From Roseofilum acuticapitatum BLCC-M154 (GTDB lineage: Bacteria; Cyanobacteriota; Cyanobacteriia; Cyanobacteriales; Desertifilaceae), in contig NZ_JAQOSP010000026.1 in assembly GCF_030068475.1 (NCBI RefSeq), positions 1-64,000 on the forward strand: DNA of 64,000 nucleotides. Direction: 5' to 3'. Numbering within the stretch: position 1 is the stretch's first letter; every line of letters starts with the position of its first letter. The notes beneath the pieces were generated by a model, which was not told the DNA's origin, made no database searches, and saw only the letters and a program-made list of their open reading frames with translations. Of the stretch, positions 2,765-44,839 are shown one piece after another. Position numbers and translations under genes: made by a program.

Positions 2765-4852
2765 ATGTCAACCCTGTCACCTACACCACCCAATGTAACT
2801 CCTCCCTCTCAAAACGGCGATCGCTTTTTAATCTGTGGATTAGGTCGTCTCGGTCAAGAATGCGTGATTGCTCTGAGGAATTTTGGAGTCATTGTTATTG
2901 GGATTGAAAAAATGCCTCCTGCTGAATGGGAATTAGCGACAGTTCCCGAATTATTAGATTCCTTGATTATAGGAGACTGTCGGCAACTATACATTCTCGA
3001 ACAGGCTCAAATTCAAAGCTGTCGGACAGTTTTAATTGTTACCAGTGACGAAGAAGTGAACGCTCAAACCGCTTTAGCAGTACGGCAACTGAATCCCCAT
3101 GTGAGAATTGTAGTGCGTTCTGCGGCGGATAACTTGAATCAACTATTGAGCGAACAGTTAGGTAATTTCTTTGCTGCCGAACCGAGACAAATGGTCGCCA
3201 CTGCCTTTGGTTTAGCCGGTTTGGGGGCGGGAACCTTGGGCTTTTTTGAGCTAGATGGTCAACATCTCCAGGTGATTACCCATAAACTTGAAGAGGGCCA
3301 TCGATGGTGTCATACGCGATCGCTTCAAGACCTCAATACCAGCAAACGGCGAGTTCTGTTCTATCACCCCAAACCGGGGTTATTGCCCCATTTTTATCGA
3401 TGGAATCCCAAGGATGTGGTTAAACCGGGTGACGAGATTGTTTATGTAGAAGTTGTGGACAAGCTTTCTCTAACCGATGAGCAACAGACCCCCAACTTCA
3501 GGAGAAATTTGTCTGAGCGACCCAGAAGCAACTCTCGTCAAACCCTTGGGTCTAGATTGACTCATTTTTGGAATACGCAGCTTTTTGAAGTGACCTTTTG
3601 GCAGTTGCAATGGCAAAGATTTAAGGATGAATTTTTGATCACTGGAGTACGAAAAGTTGCCATTATCAATGCGATTATTGTTGTATTTTTATTAATCCTA
3701 GGCACAGTTTTATTTAAGGCTTATTATCCCAATACGACTCTGTTATATTCATTTTATGCCACAGCTATCCTGTTGCTTGGAGACTATGGAGAATTATTTG
3801 GAGACTTGGAACCCATCACCAAGATTCCCGCAGCCTTACAGTTATTTGCGTTTACCCTAACCTTAGTGGGGACGGCATTTGTTGGGGTTTTGTATGCCCT
3901 GCTCACTGAAGCCATTCTTTCCTCTAAATTTGAATTGTTGCGTCGCCGTCCCCCCATTCCTAAAACTGACCATTTAATCCTAGTGGGACTCGATCGCCTC
4001 GGACAACAGGTCGCCGGTTTCTTGGATAATTTGGAACAAGCCCTAGTGGTCATTCCTTTTAACCCAAATTTGGATCAGAATGTACTACCCCGTATTCCCC
4101 TCGTCGTCGGAAATTTAACCGAAGCCCTGACCAAAGCCAATGTATTAACGGCTAGAAGCGTGATTATCACCACCGATAATGAAATGCTTAATCTAGAAAT
4201 TGCACTCATGGCTCGGCGATTAAATCCTAACACCCATTTAGTTATTGGCACGTATGGCCAAGGTTTAAGCCAATATCTAAGTCACTTATTGACCAATGTA
4301 CAAATATTGGGAACCTATGAGGTAGCCGCCGAAGCCTTTGCTGGAGCGGCGTTTGGTGAAAATATTATTAGTTTGTTTCGCTATCATAAGACCATTTTAG
4401 TTACAGAATATCAAATTGAAGAAATTGATACCTTACATGGATTACTGATTAGTGAAGTGGCTTATGGCTATCGGGTGGTGGTGCTGCTTCACCAAACTCC
4501 ACCGGAGACGGCAACATTGATGCCTTCTGACGATCTGCGGCTGGCAGTGGGCGATCGCATTGTGGTATTGTCTTCCATTGAAGGCTTAAAACGCATTGAA
4601 CACGGAACCATCATCACCCCAACTTGGAGAGTTCGGATTGATTCTACGCCGACAAGGGATGCGGCTTTCGATGGAGCCAATGTGATTGCGCGCATTTCCG
4701 GATACAGTTTAAGCGGCGCTCGTGAGTTGATGGATCAATTGCCCAAAATCTTACCGAAACGGCTCTATCTTCATCAAGCGGCCCGTTTAGTGGGAGAATT
4801 AAAGCGATCGCGAGTTAAAGCCCAATTAATCAAACCCAAACCGAAGACCTAG
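2765..4852 (+). CDS. RCK (TrkA-N) / two-helix pore / RCK ion channel-like protein
   Basis: The predicted protein has about 695 residues from ATG 2765; an in-frame GTG at 2750 is an alternative start. An N-terminal TrkA-N Rossmann domain begins with the dinucleotide motif LICGLGRLGQ. Two membrane helices follow (about residues 295-320 and 355-385) with a short pore-like segment between them. A second TrkA-N domain starts at LILVGLDRLGQQ, with RCK-C-like sequence to the end. A canonical potassium filter (TVGYG) is absent; the segment between the helices reads ILLLGDYGELFGD. The overall architecture resembles the RCK-containing channel group to which plant CASTOR/POLLUX belong. Ion selectivity cannot be inferred. 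A relative lies at 56998-58773. Confidence 0.75.
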   Translation: MSTLSPTPPNVTPPSQNGDRFLICGLGRLGQECVIALRNFGVIVIGIEKMPPAEWELATVPELLDSLIIGDCRQLYILEQAQIQSCRTVLIVTSDEEVNAQTALAVRQLNPHVRIVVRSAADNLNQLLSEQLGNFFAAEPRQMVATAFGLAGLGAGTLGFFELDGQHLQVITHKLEEGHRWCHTRSLQDLNTSKRRVLFYHPKPGLLPHFYRWNPKDVVKPGDEIVYVEVVDKLSLTDEQQTPNFRRNLSERPRSNSRQTLGSRLTHFWNTQLFEVTFWQLQWQRFKDEFLITGVRKVAIINAIIVVFLLILGTVLFKAYYPNTTLLYSFYATAILLLGDYGELFGDLEPITKIPAALQLFAFTLTLVGTAFVGVLYALLTEAILSSKFELLRRRPPIPKTDHLILVGLDRLGQQVAGFLDNLEQALVVIPFNPNLDQNVLPRIPLVVGNLTEALTKANVLTARSVIITTDNEMLNLEIALMARRLNPNTHLVIGTYGQGLSQYLSHLLTNVQILGTYEVAAEAFAGAAFGENIISLFRYHKTILVTEYQIEEIDTLHGLLISEVAYGYRVVVLLHQTPPETATLMPSDDLRLAVGDRIVVLSSIEGLKRIEHGTIITPTWRVRIDSTPTRDAAFDGANVIARISGYSLSGARELMDQLPKILPKRLYLHQAARLVGELKRSRVKAQLIKPKPKT

Positions 4853-9889: not shown

Positions 9890-12298
9890 CTACTGTTGTT
9901 TCTCGTTGGTTTGACCTAAGCGGTTGAGGTTTTCTAGGTATTTTTCATAGGCTCTTTTGACCACTTCTTCCGGGTCGTCTTCTGCTTCTTCGGCATCATC
10001 GAGGCCCATTTGGCTGAGGTCGTTTTCGATGTTTTCTTCGACGTTGGGATGGGTTTTGCACCAGGTTTTGATTTTGGTGGCTAGGGTTTCGATGCTGTCC
10101 GTGGGTTGGAGGTCTAAGCCTTGAATTTGGGTTAAAAATTCGGGTTCGTAGTAGTCGAATAGGTCGGTGAAGGCTTTGACGATGGCTGCGGGGGTGGCAT
10201 GTTCGGGGATGGACATGGTGCGTAAGGCCTCTTCTATGTTTTGGGTGGTGAGGGTGAGGGGTTGGGTTTCGCCGATGAGGGTGAACCCAGACCAGGATTC
10301 GGGTTTGGGAAACCGGGTTTTGGTGTTGAGCATAGCATGACGGAGGGCGGAGGCGCGGTTTTTGCCCTGGGCGAGGTTTTGGTAAAATTCCGTCATCAGG
10401 ACTTTGGCGGCCGGTGCGCCGATGTTCCAGAGGGAGACAACGAGACTGGGAACTCCGGAGAGAATGAAACAGCGCGATAGGCCGATGATGCCATCGCCGG
10501 TAATTTTACCTTTGCCGGTGCTACAGGCGCTGAGGACAATAATTTCTGAATTTAAGTCTAAATCGAGAATTTCTTCGGCATATAAGGCTCCATCATCGTC
10601 ACCATCGGGGGCTAAGATAATTACGCCAGGAATATCGGTTTCTAAGTCTTGTTTGCGGTCTTCGAGTTTTAACTCTTGTAAGGCATGGGCGAAAATGTGA
10701 ACGGTGCGCGTGTCTACTTCGAGCAGTCGGTTAATCACGGCAACTTTGGTCGCTCTATCGCCAGTGATGGCATCGGTTGCTAAGGTAGCGCCAATGCTTT
10801 CCCCTGCTTCTTTCATGTAGGGGTAGGGATTGAGTTTATAGTTCTTCTGGAACTTGGGGTGCAGGGTGGGTTCGGCGACGACGAGGGCTTTTTTCTGGGT
10901 TGGGTGCAGGCGCTGCTGTTGGGCGTGGGTGGTCTCTAGGACTTGAATGGAGGGAGCCGTGAGGACGGTATGGTCTTCGATCAGATAGCGCCCTTGGGGG
11001 TTCTGTAAGGACGCGAAGGGAACCAAATAGAGGGCATAGTGGGGAATGAAGATGACTCGCGCTTCGGGGTCGGTGGGCAGGAGGTCGGTAATGGGGGCGA
11101 TGAGGATATTGTAGAGGTATTGCAGCCAGGGAAAGTGACCGTTGCGGGGTTTTTCTTCCGGGTTGAGTTTGAGGAGTTGGTTGTCGTTGTCTTTTTCGGT
11201 GATACCGATGGAGACTCGCGCCCGGAGAATTAGGGTTTCCAGGTTGTCGAGTTCGGATTCAGTGATGGGGGAGCGGCGAAACTCGATGTTTCCGGTGGGT
11301 TGGATCACCCAGATATAGAGTTCTGCGGTAACAATGGAGTATTCGACCAGGGTGGCGTTTTGGGTTTGGGCAACTTGGCGAATTTGAGGGGCGCTGATGT
11401 AAGGGTTGCTCTCTTCGGGGAAGCGCTGTCTGAGCAGGTCGATAAAGGCACGGGTGCGCCCGCGCTCGGAGATTTCTAGTGCTTGGATATGTTGATCTTG
11501 GGCAATGAGGACTTCTTCCAACATTCGGTAGGAGGAGCGCTGGGTTTCAAAGATGGAGATTTGATGGCTGTCTTGTAAGTCAGATCGCAACGTTTCGCAG
11601 ACTTCTACCGCTTTTCGTAGCGTTTTTTCAGCTAAATCTACTAGCTGTGGAATTTTCCGGAGACTATTACCAAGATTATTTAGGGAACTCCATTCCCCAT
11701 GAAGATCGCCGATTTCCCTTTTTATGGTTAAAGACTGCTGGTGAAAGTCGATCGCTCTTTGGTATTGCCCTAATGAATAGTAGGCATTGCCCAGATTTCC
11801 CAGGGAAGCTGCCTCTCCCTGGCGATCACCGATTTCCCTGGCTAGGGTTAAATACTGCTGGTGGAAGTCTATCGCTCTTTGGTATTGCCCTAATGAATAG
11901 TAGGCACTGCCCAGATTTCCCAGGGAAATTGCCTCTCCCTGGCGATCGCCGATTTCCCTGGCTATGGTTAAATACTGCTCGTGGAAGGCGATCGCTCTTT
12001 GGTATTGCCCTAATGCACGGTAGGCAATGCCCAGACTTCCCAGGGAAGAAGCCTCTCCCTGGCGATTTCCGATTTCCCTAGCTAGGGTTAAAGACTGCTC
12101 GTAGAAGTCTATCGCTCTTTGGTATTGCCCTAATGATTGGTAGGCAAGGCCCAGATTTCCCAGGGAAGCTGCCTCTCCCTGGCGATTTCCCATTTCCCGA
12201 TAGAGAGCAAGGGCCTGTTCCCAGGAGGCGAAAGCTTCGCGAAACTGGCTTTTGTAGTATTGTTCTATCCCTTGGTTGAATAGATTGTCTGCATCCAT
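9890..12298 (-). CDS. TPR-CHAT protein (caspase-like peptidase domain)
   Basis: The 802-residue protein begins with about six tetratricopeptide units (residues 1-240). Five units of exactly 40 residues repeat GEAASLGNLG..AYYSLGQYQRAIDF almost without change. A linker leads into a CHAT domain (about 400-680) with the likely catalytic pair H538 in HIFAHAL and C592 in VLSACSTGKG. The C-terminal 110 residues (from about 695) form a separate acidic helical module, AIVKAFTDLFDYYEPEFL onward, that I do not recognise. CHAT proteases act as effectors or processing enzymes in bacterial immunity and cell-death systems. The upstream and downstream genes include a nucleotidyltransferase and toxin-antitoxin loci. 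Its substrate is unknown. Confidence 0.9.
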   Translation of the reverse strand: MDADNLFNQGIEQYYKSQFREAFASWEQALALYREMGNRQGEAASLGNLGLAYQSLGQYQRAIDFYEQSLTLAREIGNRQGEASSLGSLGIAYRALGQYQRAIAFHEQYLTIAREIGDRQGEAISLGNLGSAYYSLGQYQRAIDFHQQYLTLAREIGDRQGEAASLGNLGNAYYSLGQYQRAIDFHQQSLTIKREIGDLHGEWSSLNNLGNSLRKIPQLVDLAEKTLRKAVEVCETLRSDLQDSHQISIFETQRSSYRMLEEVLIAQDQHIQALEISERGRTRAFIDLLRQRFPEESNPYISAPQIRQVAQTQNATLVEYSIVTAELYIWVIQPTGNIEFRRSPITESELDNLETLILRARVSIGITEKDNDNQLLKLNPEEKPRNGHFPWLQYLYNILIAPITDLLPTDPEARVIFIPHYALYLVPFASLQNPQGRYLIEDHTVLTAPSIQVLETTHAQQQRLHPTQKKALVVAEPTLHPKFQKNYKLNPYPYMKEAGESIGATLATDAITGDRATKVAVINRLLEVDTRTVHIFAHALQELKLEDRKQDLETDIPGVIILAPDGDDDGALYAEEILDLDLNSEIIVLSACSTGKGKITGDGIIGLSRCFILSGVPSLVVSLWNIGAPAAKVLMTEFYQNLAQGKNRASALRHAMLNTKTRFPKPESWSGFTLIGETQPLTLTTQNIEEALRTMSIPEHATPAAIVKAFTDLFDYYEPEFLTQIQGLDLQPTDSIETLATKIKTWCKTHPNVEENIENDLSQMGLDDAEEAEDDPEEVVKRAYEKYLENLNRLGQTNEKQQ
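11680..12200. repeat. 120-bp tandem repeats inside the TPR region
   Basis: The DNA encoding the TPR units repeats every 120 bp with few differences. For example TCTTTGGTATTGCCCTAATG recurs at about 11756, 11876, 11996 and 12116. The blocks in between, such as CCCAGATTTCCCAGGGAA, are likewise near-identical. Conservation at nucleotide level rather than protein level alone indicates recent duplication or ongoing homogenisation of the array. Confidence 0.85.
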
Positions 12299-14419: not shown

Positions 14420-15736
14420 CTAGGCAATAGGTAATTCAACGATCAATTCTGTTCCCTGATGGAGGTTAGAGTGACAATAGAGTTGACCTTGATGTTGTTC
14501 GGTAATAATTTGATAGCTGATATAGAGACCGAGACCATTATGGTTTTTACCTAACTTTGTGGTGAAGAAGGGCTGAAAAATTTGCTCTTGTATGGCTTCT
14601 GATATCCCTATGCCATTATCGGTGATGGACAGCCTCACGGCTTGTTCTTGAAGGGATAAGGTTGAAATCTTTAAGGTTTTCTTTAGCACTGTATGTTCTT
14701 CTAAAGCATCGATCGCGTTATTGAGGATATGCATAATGGCCTGGTTCAGTTGTCGAGGATAGCAGGAAATGGGGGGAAGGTCGCTATACTCACGGATAAT
14801 GGTAATTGGGGGGCGATCGCCGTTGGGGGTGAGTCGATGTCCCAATAGTAATAAATTATGCTCAATCGCTTCCTGTAAATCTACCCTTTTATAGTCTGAT
14901 TCATCCAAGCGAGAAAATTTGCGGAGTGAGTTAACAATGGTTTGAATGCGATCGATACCCACTTGAGTAGATTTCAGGAGTTCTTGAAGATCTTGACCCA
15001 AAAACTCTAAATCGAGATTTTCCAGTAAGTTTTGTAAAGTTTCCGGTGGATTCGGATAGTGGTTTTGGTAAGCTTGAGCTAGGGACAATAATTCTTGTGA
15101 ATATTCTCCCAAATGATGGAGATTGCCCTGAATAAAGGCCGTTGGATTATTAATCTCATGGGCAACCCCCGCAACCAACTGTCCCAAAGCTGACATTTTG
15201 GCACTTTGGATTAATTGAGCTTGGGTTTGTTGAAGATGTCTGAACTTTAACCTTAATTCCATCTGAGAGATGACCTGTCGCCCCAGGGCTTTCAGAGCCT
15301 TCAATTGTTCGTCACTTAGATCGCGGGGAACTCGATCTATGGTACAAAGTGTGCCGATGGGATATCCGTCGGGGGTGACGAGAGGAGTGCCCGCATAAAA
15401 GCGAATATTGGGTTCTGAGGTGACTAAGGGATTGGTCGCAAAGCGATCATCCTCTAGAGTATTGGGAACCACTAGAAGGCGATCGGGTTGGTTAATAGCA
15501 TGGGCACAAAAGGCAATCTCTCTGGGCGTTTCTGCGGCATCTATGCCCACTTTGGATTTAAACCACTGCCGATTTTGATCGACTAAACTCACTAGGGCAA
15601 TGGGAGTGTCGCAAATGTATGCAGCCAGTTGGGTGAGATCGTCAAACGCTTCTTCTGCCGCAGTGTCTAAGATATCGTAATTCTCTAGGGCCTGCAAGCG
15701 CTCTGTTTCATGGCTAGGAATGGGTGGAATCTTCAT
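14420..15736 (-). CDS. GAF domain sensor histidine kinase
   Basis: The 438-residue protein is soluble and has no membrane helix. An N-terminal GAF domain (about 20-165) contains the family block FCAHAINQPDRLLVVPNTLED. The HisKA domain follows with the phosphorylated histidine in GVAHEINNP, near residue 192. The HATPase_c domain has the N box HILNNAIDAL, G1 DNGIGI, the F box IFQPFFTTK and G2 GLGLYIS. It therefore appears able to autophosphorylate. No response regulator is adjacent, so it is an orphan kinase whose signal and partner are unknown. No chromophore-binding cysteine typical of phytochromes is evident. Confidence 0.93.
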   Translation of the reverse strand: MKIPPIPSHETERLQALENYDILDTAAEEAFDDLTQLAAYICDTPIALVSLVDQNRQWFKSKVGIDAAETPREIAFCAHAINQPDRLLVVPNTLEDDRFATNPLVTSEPNIRFYAGTPLVTPDGYPIGTLCTIDRVPRDLSDEQLKALKALGRQVISQMELRLKFRHLQQTQAQLIQSAKMSALGQLVAGVAHEINNPTAFIQGNLHHLGEYSQELLSLAQAYQNHYPNPPETLQNLLENLDLEFLGQDLQELLKSTQVGIDRIQTIVNSLRKFSRLDESDYKRVDLQEAIEHNLLLLGHRLTPNGDRPPITIIREYSDLPPISCYPRQLNQAIMHILNNAIDALEEHTVLKKTLKISTLSLQEQAVRLSITDNGIGISEAIQEQIFQPFFTTKLGKNHNGLGLYISYQIITEQHQGQLYCHSNLHQGTELIVELPIA

Positions 15737-22381: not shown

Positions 22382-22705
22382 TTGATCAATCGATAGTAAT
22401 ATAGCGCGTTGCGCTGTATAGATGGACAGTAGGAAAAGATCCCCCCTTGCCCCCCTTAAAAAGGGGGGAATAGAAAAGTCCCCCTTTTTAAGGGGGATTT
22501 TCCGCAAGCGGACATGAAAGGGGGATCAAGATGTCCCACATAAAACGCGAAAACTGCTGTAAAAAGCAGGGGGTTTTCATTTTCACAAATTATACCACAA
22601 CAAAAGCAAAATCTTTGCTTCTCAAAACCGTTTTTTTGGCCCGGTTCAATTCTCTGTCAGCCAAGAATAACGTACCTCATAAAAGCGCAAGGTGCTGTAA
22701 ATCAA
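22382..22705. other. Intergenic region with C-rich hairpin repeat
   Basis: No gene is supported. At about 22438-22528 lies a copy of the dispersed hairpin family with CCCCCCTTAAAAAGGGGGG and CCCCCTTTTTAAGGGGG cores, ending GAAAGGGGGATC. At 22549-22578 the arms GAAAAC..TGCT and AGCA..GTTTTC form a weaker hairpin followed by ATTTTC, a candidate terminator for the decarboxylase gene. The remainder to the arsC stop is featureless. Confidence 0.6.
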
Positions 22706-41718: not shown

Positions 41719-42376
41719 TTGAGTTTGGTTTTTCTGTTACAAATCAGCAACATTCTCTTGTCTCATTGACAATTTGTTTGCTAGAATTGAGATAATCCAT
41801 TTTGAAATTGCTTTTTAACATTCAGGGATCAATTTTTCCCACTTTTTCATCCCATTCTATTTTCAGGTAAAGATTCCCGGTAGGGGTGGCACTGCTTCCC
41901 ACTCTCTACCCCCCTTAATTCATTTTTGGAATCTTTATCTCTTTGATTCAATTTACCTCTTTGATTCGATAGGCGAAGATCCCCCCAACCCCCCTTAAAA
42001 AGGGGGGCAGTAAAAGTCCCCCCTTTTTAAGGGGAGGCAGTAAAAGTCCCCCTTTTTAAGGGGAGGCAGTAAAAGTCCCCCTTTTTAAGGGGAGGCAGTA
42101 AAAGTCCCCCTTTTTAAGGGGAGGCAGCGAAAGTCCCCCTTTTTAAGGGGAGGCAATAAAAGTCCCCCTTTTTAAGGGGGGGCAATAAAAGTCCCCCTTT
42201 TTAAGGGGGGGCAATAAAAGTCCCCCTTTTTAAGGGGGGGCAATAAAAGTCCCCCTTTTTAAGGGGGATTTAGGGGGATCGATATGTGTCGCAGAGCAGA
42301 GCAACGTGCTGTAACTGTTGCCTGTTGCCTGTTGCCTTTTGCCTCTATTATTCCAGTTTTTGGAGAGATTAAAAAA
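41719..42376. other. Long intergenic region before ppsA
   Basis: These 658 bases hold no gene that I can support. The first 250 bases contain only weak repeats, such as CTTTGATTCAATTTACC and CTTTGATTCGAT. Positions 41978-42280 are the C-rich/G-rich hairpin array described separately. The last 90 bases carry TGCCTGTTGCCTGTTGCCTT and run into the ribosome site GGAGAG just before ATG 42377. The open frame that starts at 42284 upstream of ppsA is within this repeat-derived sequence and is not coding. Confidence 0.7.
41978..42280. repeat. Tandem array of 29-bp hairpin units
   Basis: Nine units of 29 bp begin at 42016, 42046, 42075, 42104, 42133, 42162, 42191, 42220 and 42249 (the first interval is 30 bp). 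Each contains a palindrome such as CCCCCTTTTTAAGGGG plus AGGCAGTAAAAGT or GGCAATAAAAGT. The array opens with an inverted version, CCCCCCTTAAAAAGGGGGG, near 41990 and closes with AAGGGGGATTTAGGGGGATCG. Units of the same family stand singly at about 150-195 and 22438-22528. It lies in the ppsA leader and would make a string of nine hairpins if transcribed. Confidence 0.92.
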
Positions 42377-44839
42377 ATGTTAAAAACTGTTGCTTTAACA
42401 AATGCTTATACCCAAGAAGCTAAAGCCAAGGCTTTGGTGTTGTGGAAACAAAATGCCTTGATCCTTTGGTTCGATCAAGTCGGTTTAAATGATATTGGCT
42501 TAGTTGGCGGTAAAAATGCGTCGTTAGGAGAACTGATCGGTCAGTTAACGCCCAAAGGGATTAATGTGCCCCAAGGATTTGCCATTACGGCCCATGCTTA
42601 CCGTTATTTTATCTCGTCGGCGGGGTTAGAGCCGCAACTGCGGGAACTGTTGACAGATTTGGATGTGGAGAATGGGCCATTGTTGCGTCAGCGAGCAGCT
42701 AAGGCGCGATCGCTCATTCTCAATACTAAATTCCCGAAAGACATCGAAATGGCGATCGCCGTTGCCTATCAGCGCTTAGGAGAACTCTACGGTAAAGATC
42801 CCGATGTAGCAGTGCGCTCTTCAGCCACCGCAGAAGATTTACCCGATGCCAGTTTTGCCGGTCAACAGGACACCTATCTGAATATTTCTGGCTTAAATGA
42901 GGTCATTAAAGCGGTTCATCGCTGCTTTGCGTCCCTGTTTACCGATCGCGCCATTTCCTATCGCACCCATAAAGGCTTTGACCATTTTGAGGTCGCCCTC
43001 TCTGTAGGCGTGCAAAAAATGGTACGCTCTGACCTAGCGACTTCCGGGGTGATGTTCTCCATTGATCCAGAAACGGGATTTAAGAACACCGCTCTGATTA
43101 CGGCTGCCTATGGGTTAGGAGAAACCGTGGTGCAAGGATCGGTAAACCCGGATGAATATTTGGTGTTTAAACCCACATTGCGCGAAGGATTCAAGCCGAT
43201 TTTGCAGAAACGTCTGGGTCGTAAGGCGATTAAAATGGTCTATCGTGAGGATGGCAACCATGCGACGAAGATTGTGCCGGTTCCTTGGATGCGGCAACAA
43301 CAGTTTGCCCTCAGTGATGAGGAAATTCTCAAGCTCGGAGATTGGGCTGTGATGATTGAGGATCATTACTCTAAATTGCGGCAAACCTATACCCCGATGG
43401 ACATTGAATGGGCCAAAGATGGGAAAACCGGGCAGTTGTTTATTGTGCAAGCACGGCCGGAAACGGTGCAGTCCCAGAAGTCGAGCCAAGTTTTACGCCA
43501 TTATCAGTTGCAGGAACAGGGCGAGCTGTTGGTGCAAGGTCGAGCCGTGGGAGAGGCGATCGCCTCCGGCCCCGCACGGGTGATTCTGGATGTGTCGCAA
43601 ATCGATCAATTCCAGTCCGGGGAAGTGCTGGTCACCCATCGCACCGATCCCGATTGGGAGCCAATCATGAAGAAAGCGAGCGCGATCGTCACCAATACCG
43701 GGGGACGCACCTGCCACGCCGCCATTATTGCTAGAGAAATGGGCATTCCCGCCGTTGTCGGGTGCGAAAAAGCGACCGAGCGGTTAAGTAATGGTCAGGA
43801 AATTACCGTCTCCTGTGCCGAAGGGGAACAGGGCAATGTTTACTCCGGTTTGTTACCCTTTGAAGTGCAGGAAACGGTGTTAAATGATTTACCTCGAACC
43901 CGCACGCAGATTCTCATGAACGTGGGCAACCCAGAGGAGGCATTCCGGTTATCAGCCATACCCTGTGATGGAGTCGGTTTAGCTCGTTTAGAGTTCATTA
44001 TTGCCAATCAAATTAAGACCCATCCCTTAGCGCTCCTTCACTTTGACGACCTCGAAGATGCCGACGTAAAGGCGGAAATTGAGGAGCTGACGGCACACTA
44101 TCCCTATAAACCCGACTTCTTTGTGGATCGGTTAGCCTATGGTATGGGGGCGATCGCCGCCGCCTTTTATCCCCATCCCGTCATTATCAGGCTTTCCGAC
44201 TTCAAGAGCAACGAATACGCCAATCTTTTAGGCGGTCGTCAATTTGAACCCCAGGAAGAAAACCCCATGATTGGCTGGCGCGGAGCCTCCCGCTATTACG
44301 ACCCCCAATATCGGGAAGCCTTCGCCCTAGAATGCCAAGCCTTAAAACGGGTTCGCGATGACATGGGATTGGTGAATGCTATCCCCATGATTCCCTTCTG
44401 TCGGACTCCAGAAGAAGGGCGCAAGGTGTTAGCAGAAATGGAAAAACATGGACTGAAACGGGGTAAACATGGCTTGCAAGTTTATGTCATGTGCGAGTTA
44501 CCCAGCAACGTGATTTTAGCCTCCGAATTTGCCCAAGTCTTTGACGGGTTTTCCATTGGTTCCAATGATTTAACCCAACTCACATTAGGTTTAGACCGGG
44601 ATTCCGGGTTAGTTGCGCCCTTATTTGACGAACGCAATGAAGCCGTTAAACGGATGGTGAAAATGGCCATTGAAACCGCAAAAGCCGAAGGTCGAAAAAT
44701 CGGCATCTGCGGTCAAGCACCGAGTGATTATCCAGAATTCGCCCGCTTTTTAGTCGAGTTAGGCATTGATTCGATTAGTTTGAATCCGGATTCAGTGTTG
44801 AAGACAATGTTGGATATTGCCGAACTGGAGCGCGGATAA
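42377..44839 (+). CDS. ppsA: Phosphoenolpyruvate synthase
   Basis: PpsA converts pyruvate and ATP to phosphoenolpyruvate for gluconeogenesis. ATG 42377 is chosen because GGAGAG lies 9 nt upstream and the protein then starts MLKTVALTNAYTQ; length is 820 residues. The N-terminal ATP-grasp domain has VGGKNASLGELI and SFAGQQDTYLNI. The swivelling domain carries the phosphorylated histidine in GGRTCHAAIIAREMGIPAV. The C-terminal PEP-binding barrel contains DGFSIGSNDLTQLTLGLDRD and the catalytic cysteine block GRKIGICGQAPSD. All domains are complete. Confidence 0.95.
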   Translation: MLKTVALTNAYTQEAKAKALVLWKQNALILWFDQVGLNDIGLVGGKNASLGELIGQLTPKGINVPQGFAITAHAYRYFISSAGLEPQLRELLTDLDVENGPLLRQRAAKARSLILNTKFPKDIEMAIAVAYQRLGELYGKDPDVAVRSSATAEDLPDASFAGQQDTYLNISGLNEVIKAVHRCFASLFTDRAISYRTHKGFDHFEVALSVGVQKMVRSDLATSGVMFSIDPETGFKNTALITAAYGLGETVVQGSVNPDEYLVFKPTLREGFKPILQKRLGRKAIKMVYREDGNHATKIVPVPWMRQQQFALSDEEILKLGDWAVMIEDHYSKLRQTYTPMDIEWAKDGKTGQLFIVQARPETVQSQKSSQVLRHYQLQEQGELLVQGRAVGEAIASGPARVILDVSQIDQFQSGEVLVTHRTDPDWEPIMKKASAIVTNTGGRTCHAAIIAREMGIPAVVGCEKATERLSNGQEITVSCAEGEQGNVYSGLLPFEVQETVLNDLPRTRTQILMNVGNPEEAFRLSAIPCDGVGLARLEFIIANQIKTHPLALLHFDDLEDADVKAEIEELTAHYPYKPDFFVDRLAYGMGAIAAAFYPHPVIIRLSDFKSNEYANLLGGRQFEPQEENPMIGWRGASRYYDPQYREAFALECQALKRVRDDMGLVNAIPMIPFCRTPEEGRKVLAEMEKHGLKRGKHGLQVYVMCELPSNVILASEFAQVFDGFSIGSNDLTQLTLGLDRDSGLVAPLFDERNEAVKRMVKMAIETAKAEGRKIGICGQAPSDYPEFARFLVELGIDSISLNPDSVLKTMLDIAELERG

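Follow-up and report, generated by a model that had tools for sequence, protein, structure and literature searches.

The array upstream of ppsA

The DNA analyzed here (hereinafter, the window) is a stretch of 64,000 nucleotides of Roseofilum acuticapitatum BLCC-M154 (contig NZ_JAQOSP010000026.1). Within the window, a gene of the Glu/Leu/Phe/Val dehydrogenase family, here called gdhA, is followed by ppsA, and between the two lies a single 303-bp element that begins with GATCCCCCCAACC and finishes with GGATTTAGGGGGATC (Table 1). The element contains ten 17-bp palindromes of the type CCCCCTT-AAA/TTT-AAGGGGG, one inverted and nine direct, and all nine intervals between them are exactly 29 bp long; Tandem Repeats Finder (TRF) gives the same period, with 9.2 copies and a 96% match. 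The initial annotation had described nine strict 29-bp units, opened by an inverted copy and located about 100 nt ahead of ppsA, and these points hold: the span that it assigned to the array coincides exactly with the bounds of the element, the inverted copy is present, and 96 nt separate the end of the array from the likely start of ppsA. The opening copy is, however, part of the element's other terminal inverted repeat. With up to two mismatches allowed, 12 matches to the palindrome were detected in the window, compared to 0.03 expected from shuffled sequences; ten of these belong to the array and the other two to a separate element (22451-22496).

The spacers between the palindromes are near-identical and thus do not conform to the unique spacers that characterize CRISPR arrays. 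Their order is GGCAGTAAAAGT, AGGCAGTAAAAGT (three times), AGGCAGCGAAAGT, AGGCAATAAAAGT, and GGGCAATAAAAGT (three times), such that, with the first spacer left out, four of the seven neighboring pairs match exactly (p about 0.02 by permutation), in agreement with the earlier remark that the internal variants are grouped. The right outer arm that follows the element is also present in the congeneric genomes G005, G001 and G002, and no matching left outer arm was seen at the ppsA element. The window additionally includes a separate 120-bp tandem repeat (11704-12198; 4.1 copies with an 89% match according to TRF).

Table 1. Features of the ppsA upstream region and the second copy of the element in the window
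Feature	Position	Strand	Comment
Second copy of the element, unamplified, 162 bp	22400..22561	+	Bounded by TATAGC...GCTGTA; one inverted palindrome pair
Promoter-like TTGCTAGAATTGAGATAATC	41778..41797	+	Identical in five aligned genomes of the genus, this one included
Inverted repeat TAAAGATTCC...GGAATCTTTA	41868..41937	+	Between gdhA and ppsA; from the genus alignment
Whole GATCCCCC...GGGGGATC element	41978..42280	+	303 bp; the array is its interior
Left terminal part, GATCCCCCCAAC and inverted palindrome (CCCCCTTAAAAAGGGGG)	41978..42006	-	Inverted palindrome at 41990-42006
Nine direct palindromes CCCCCTTTTTAAGGGG(G/A)	42019..42267	+	Period 29 bp
Right end ATTTAGGGGGATC	42268..42280	+	Within the element, GATC is present here and at the left end only
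Degenerate right outer arm (GATATGTGTCGCA...GCTGTA)	42281..42313	+	Resembles outer arms of other copies
ppsA (phosphoenolpyruvate synthase)	42377..44839	+	Likely start with GGAG ahead; TIGR01418

A dispersed MITE-like family

Across the 5.22-Mb genome, the palindrome, with at most one mismatch, occurs 161 times in the forward and 119 times in the reverse orientation, and a reversed control sequence gave no matches. Altogether, the genome contains 49 strict inverted palindrome pairs, and 26 of 44 distinct copies that were examined carry a single unit, so the element is dispersed, as the initial annotation maintained. An unamplified copy has the layout GATCCCCC-palindrome-spacer-palindrome-GGGGGATC and spans about 70-93 bp, with the palindromes 28-31 bp apart in 27 of the 29 two-palindrome copies. 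Outer arms of the TACAGC/GCTGTA type, scored by a simple motif, are found on both sides in 16 of the 33 copies with full flanks and on neither side in 9. Used as a query against plasmids, the window's second copy yielded eight records, all of them cyanobacterial and covering at most 40% of the copy; in seven, no annotated feature lies beneath the match, and the remaining record carries no annotation. The start or end of a contig of the draft genome often falls within or next to a copy of the element (C3, C22, C36, C45, C74, C82, and others), and the family probably explains some of the contig breaks.

The terminal inverted repeats (the GATCCCCC...GGGGGATC ends with their palindromes), the number of dispersed copies, and the short, non-coding cores (70-334 bp, too short to encompass a transposase gene) are features of MITEs, and on account of its ends, copies and size we classify the family as putatively MITE-like. 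Inspected by eye, the flanks show at most a TA at the outer bounds as a possible target-site duplication, and this dinucleotide may itself be part of the element. No clean empty site was found: the site next to hemA in G005 lacks the element but is not a clean joint, and at ppsA there is none among the genomes of the genus that were compared. A transposase partner with the same ends was not found in the two families searched, DDE_3 and Y1. An IS630-type partner is not supported, as the genome has no DDE_3 match (PF13358), nor is a RAYT link, as seven of the eight Y1-transposase loci, taken with 1.5-kb flanks, lack the palindrome. Therefore the mobility of the family is something that we infer, and the original insertions presumably occurred by transposition.

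Amplified copies at other loci of the genome

The initial annotation held that the element has multiplied only upstream of ppsA, which is not the case. In the set of 44 distinct elements, a sample enriched for arrays, 4 copies contain no unit, 26 contain one, 3 each contain two, three and four, single copies contain six and seven, and 3 contain nine. Thus, besides the ppsA array, 13 of the examined copies possess two to nine units, and equal arrays at many unrelated loci, one part of what the same annotation named as grounds for rejecting its view, largely materialize in the form of two more nine-unit loci and eight loci with three to seven units. One of the other nine-unit arrays (contig C123) adjoins a gene whose product has CheW and receiver domains; the second one separates the ATP-synthase genes for beta and epsilon (C63:166981-167340, corresponding to 782-1141 of locus L175). 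Given that the beta and epsilon genes usually form one operon, the latter array is probably transcribed. A strict tandem pattern detected 15 direct junctions over seven loci, 8 of these in the ppsA array, and a similarity search revealed additional long arrays; because strict patterns overlook arrays with altered palindromes, the array counts for this and other genomes are lower bounds.

Among the arrays of this genome, the unit length is 29-37 bp, apart from one copy with two units that stand 72 bp apart. The unit consists of the palindrome and the spacer and its length tracks the spacer of the particular element; the spacers of most arrays are unlike one another. In all 11 elements with at least three units, GATC is found solely at the two ends, with the tandem repeat confined between them. 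An array on C109 reaches seven units even though only half of the palindrome survives in its repeated unit.

Unit number at orthologous loci

Arrays at orthologous positions differ in length between species of the genus. Upstream of ppsA, nine units in this genome correspond to five units in G005 (ppsA nucleotide identity, 95.9%), where an element with the same ends spans 187 bp. Three of the five G005 spacers are identical to spacers of the present array (two variants, in a different order), and the first and the last are each one base off one of them. In G001 and G002 (90% compared to 95.9% in G005), only a one-palindrome remnant, CCCCCCTTTTTAAGGG, and the right arm are present, whereas G003 (93%) has an unrelated stretch instead of the element. 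The ppsA upstream region of G004 (78% protein identity) is not alignable, and its loci L073 and L158 contain neither the palindrome nor a GATCCCC end. At a second locus, on C105, six units in this genome face three in G005 (the latter counted by eye), with flanks that are 94-96% identical. Upstream of hemA, a count of palindromes, likewise made by eye, gives four, some of them decayed, in this genome and three in G003; all that is left in G001 and G002 is a portion of the left end, and the element is absent from G005. Taken together, the grouping of variants and the fact that a close relative has another number of units at the orthologous locus support the proposal of the initial annotation that a dispersed element was duplicated locally and stepwise.

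Further repeats were noticed at 14997-15163 (about 167 bp) and 3568-3694 (about 127 bp) of locus L122, with many matches listed in G005 and G003.

Arrays and copies in other cyanobacteria

Strict pairs are present in 13 of 59 related genomes (this one included), with 14 and 11 pairs in two congeners, compared to 49 here, and none in three other congeners, a distribution that appears patchy and mobile-like. Arrays with three or more strict units were identified in at least three of the 59 relatives, namely, this genome, G005, where the array is the one next to ppsA, and G051, and in at least three of 386 genomes of the phylum sample (this genome, G100 and G195). In a species collection, at least three contigs carry such arrays; these come from a Spirulina MAG, Prochloron didemni, and a Richelia MAG. 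The arrays outside the genus have different spacers, and the unit lengths vary (27 bp in G195, 29 bp in Prochloron, 31 bp in Spirulina and Richelia, and 33 bp in G100), so that a dispersed cyanobacterial element has repeatedly turned into a minisatellite. The picture of one element bounded by single ends is less clean in these genomes: the units of the G195 array hold internal GGGGGATC, and the array of Prochloron didemni (JH610765.1; 11 copies according to TRF), which has sequence in common with the G051 array, is not neatly confined between ends, with no GATCCCCC directly to its left and a separate small element farther left.

The Prochloron array (positions 487-809 of L099 3-2352) is located within a DnaX intein. 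The N-extein and the N-terminal region of the intein (TIGR01445) continue into the array, where they terminate, and the C-terminal part of the intein together with the remainder of DnaX is open in a different frame; hence, as assembled, the reading frame is interrupted at the array.

Origin of the arrays

The interpretation that we favor, with a probability of about 0.8, is that a dispersed, non-coding, palindromic MITE-like element had its interior unit amplified in situ, through slippage or unequal recombination, to yield a variable-number tandem repeat that has no required role for ppsA. In an ordinary copy, the two 17-bp palindromes are almost identical and usually 28-31 bp apart; because such a palindrome reads alike in both orientations, an inverted pair doubles as a direct repeat. 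Slipped-strand mispairing or unequal recombination between the palindromes would then add or remove one palindrome and one spacer per event. Amplification in place accounts for the single ends, for a unit length that tracks the element's own spacer, for like variants that adjoin, and for the differences between orthologous copies. This scenario is supported by the array's bounds, GATCCCCC and GGGGGATC, which the unamplified copies share. The C109 array suits slippage between direct repeats, for which a hairpin in every unit is not needed. Slippage or recombination remains the presumed cause, and the data do not tell slippage, unequal recombination, and gene conversion apart.

Alternatively, the array could have been made by the transposition machinery, through insertion of elements into one another or through REP/RAYT-like copying of paired palindromes. 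The inverted palindrome pairs resemble REPINs and BIMEs, the genome encodes eight Y1-transposase matches, internal GGGGGATC occurs in the G195 units, and three copies in this genome with related GAATAAGAAAGT spacers and similar arms, carrying 9, 4 and 3 units, suggest that an array could move as a whole. Nevertheless, the absence of internal GATC from all 11 arrays argues that each is a single element and makes nested insertion an unlikely origin for the arrays of this genome; furthermore, the palindrome occurs at only one of the eight Y1 loci, where a pair and the gene are separated by about 1.4 kb, and spacers differ between most arrays. Overall, we consider an origin by transposition machinery unlikely.

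The assembly itself is a draft of 154 contigs and might miscount units in a 303-bp repeat. The many contigs whose start falls in or next to a copy indicate that the assembly struggled with this family, and accordingly the unit number could in part be an artefact of short reads; yet the internal variants are ordered and distinct, a congener's assembly likewise shows, at the corresponding position, an array with these ends, and an error of this kind could change the count but hardly create the array. As the explanation of the unit number, it appears very improbable.

The ppsA upstream region and RNA structure

If the promoter-like stretch upstream of the array is a true promoter, the array lies in the ppsA leader. 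The distance between this stretch and the ppsA ATG is 579 nt in this genome, compared to 285-463 nt in the other aligned genomes of the genus. A promoter scan of the region found one promoter-like site, a count not above chance, and in the genus alignment another stretch, near the ATG, is conserved as well. The arms of the inverted repeat between gdhA and ppsA are kept in the five aligned genomes, save for one base in G002, and this structure could be a terminator or part of a leader. Of the 14 terminator-like sites, 13 lie on the minus strand and thus give no indication that transcription ends before reaching ppsA. In the window, tRNA alone reaches the gathering score among known RNA families; a permissive scan of the leader returned 26 matches, all of which fall below the gathering scores and overlap palindromes, and these candidates were rejected.

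The initial annotation envisaged a chain of nine hairpins in the transcript. When pairing is held to a span of 40 nt, the predicted structure is indeed a chain of local hairpins, whereas in full-length folding the minimum-energy structure consists of nested long duplexes (-176.4 kcal/mol, z = -8.5). The promoter-like stretch, the strong folding, and the retention of nine units at one locus would be compatible with a selected regulatory device, in which the structure or stability of the mRNA, or local supercoiling, would be adjusted through the number of units. However, a z-score of this magnitude is expected from any palindrome array, arrays of the same size exist at unrelated loci, the conserved stretch near the ATG leaves room for a downstream start, and ppsA is kept without the array in G001, G002, G003 and G004. 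We therefore find a selected device of this kind improbable, and give no more credence to the broader conjecture that the family seeds variable-number arrays next to and between core genes (ppsA, ATP-synthase beta and epsilon, hemA), with the unit number serving as a heritable dial for how central-metabolism genes are expressed, one that changes between sister species. In these four congeners, ppsA is open throughout, so the array is not required for the presence of the gene and is dispensable on the species scale. The series of natural lengths in front of one conserved gene (303 bp, 187 bp, a remnant, and none) offers a way to test whether the arrays act, and the arrays are also usable as typing markers.

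Comparison with known systems

Topic and sequence-string searches covered the open-access literature, with subscription papers and supplements outside their reach; within that scope, the cyanobacterial family is not described as a minisatellite, and exact strings of the element gave no relevant match by title. Several known systems share part of its features. REP, BIME and REPIN sequences, as described in the text available to us (PMC3733652, PMC3116915, PMC2817692), are likewise paired, inverted palindromes that are dispersed and sometimes arranged in tandem, but the Y1 transposases of this genome are not flanked by the palindrome, and the ends of the element are of the GATCCCCC type. Intrastrand triplex motifs, in which cyanobacteria are rich, resemble it, judging by their description in the accessible part of the report, as GC-rich, palindrome-like repeats tied to local instability (PMC4666352). 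Named cyanobacterial MITEs include Nezha, to the extent that it is covered in the sources at hand. The type II MITEs of Anabaena sp. 90, compared by description, are also short, non-coding, mostly intergenic, inverted-repeat elements with many copies and without similarity to IS ends, as is the case for the present family in the two transposase families searched; in contrast to that family, an internal minisatellite is not mentioned in the available portion of the Anabaena account (PMC3542288).

The closest precedent appears to be BrickBuilt of Porphyromonas gingivalis, which, along with 464/PgRS, is presented in the accessible text as a MITE containing a minisatellite (PMC4596501); elements of this kind are thus already known. 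Similarly to the cyanobacterial element, BrickBuilt and PgRS are, by this account, short, non-coding, intergenic, dispersed in one genome, and equipped with inverted-repeat ends and an internal tandem repeat (PMC4596501). The two are set apart, at the level of description, by the organization of the repeat: the BrickBuilt units are 23 bp long and follow one another without spacers between leader and tail subunits (PMC4596501), whereas the cyanobacterial unit is the element's own terminal palindrome together with a spacer, and most of the examined copies retain just one.
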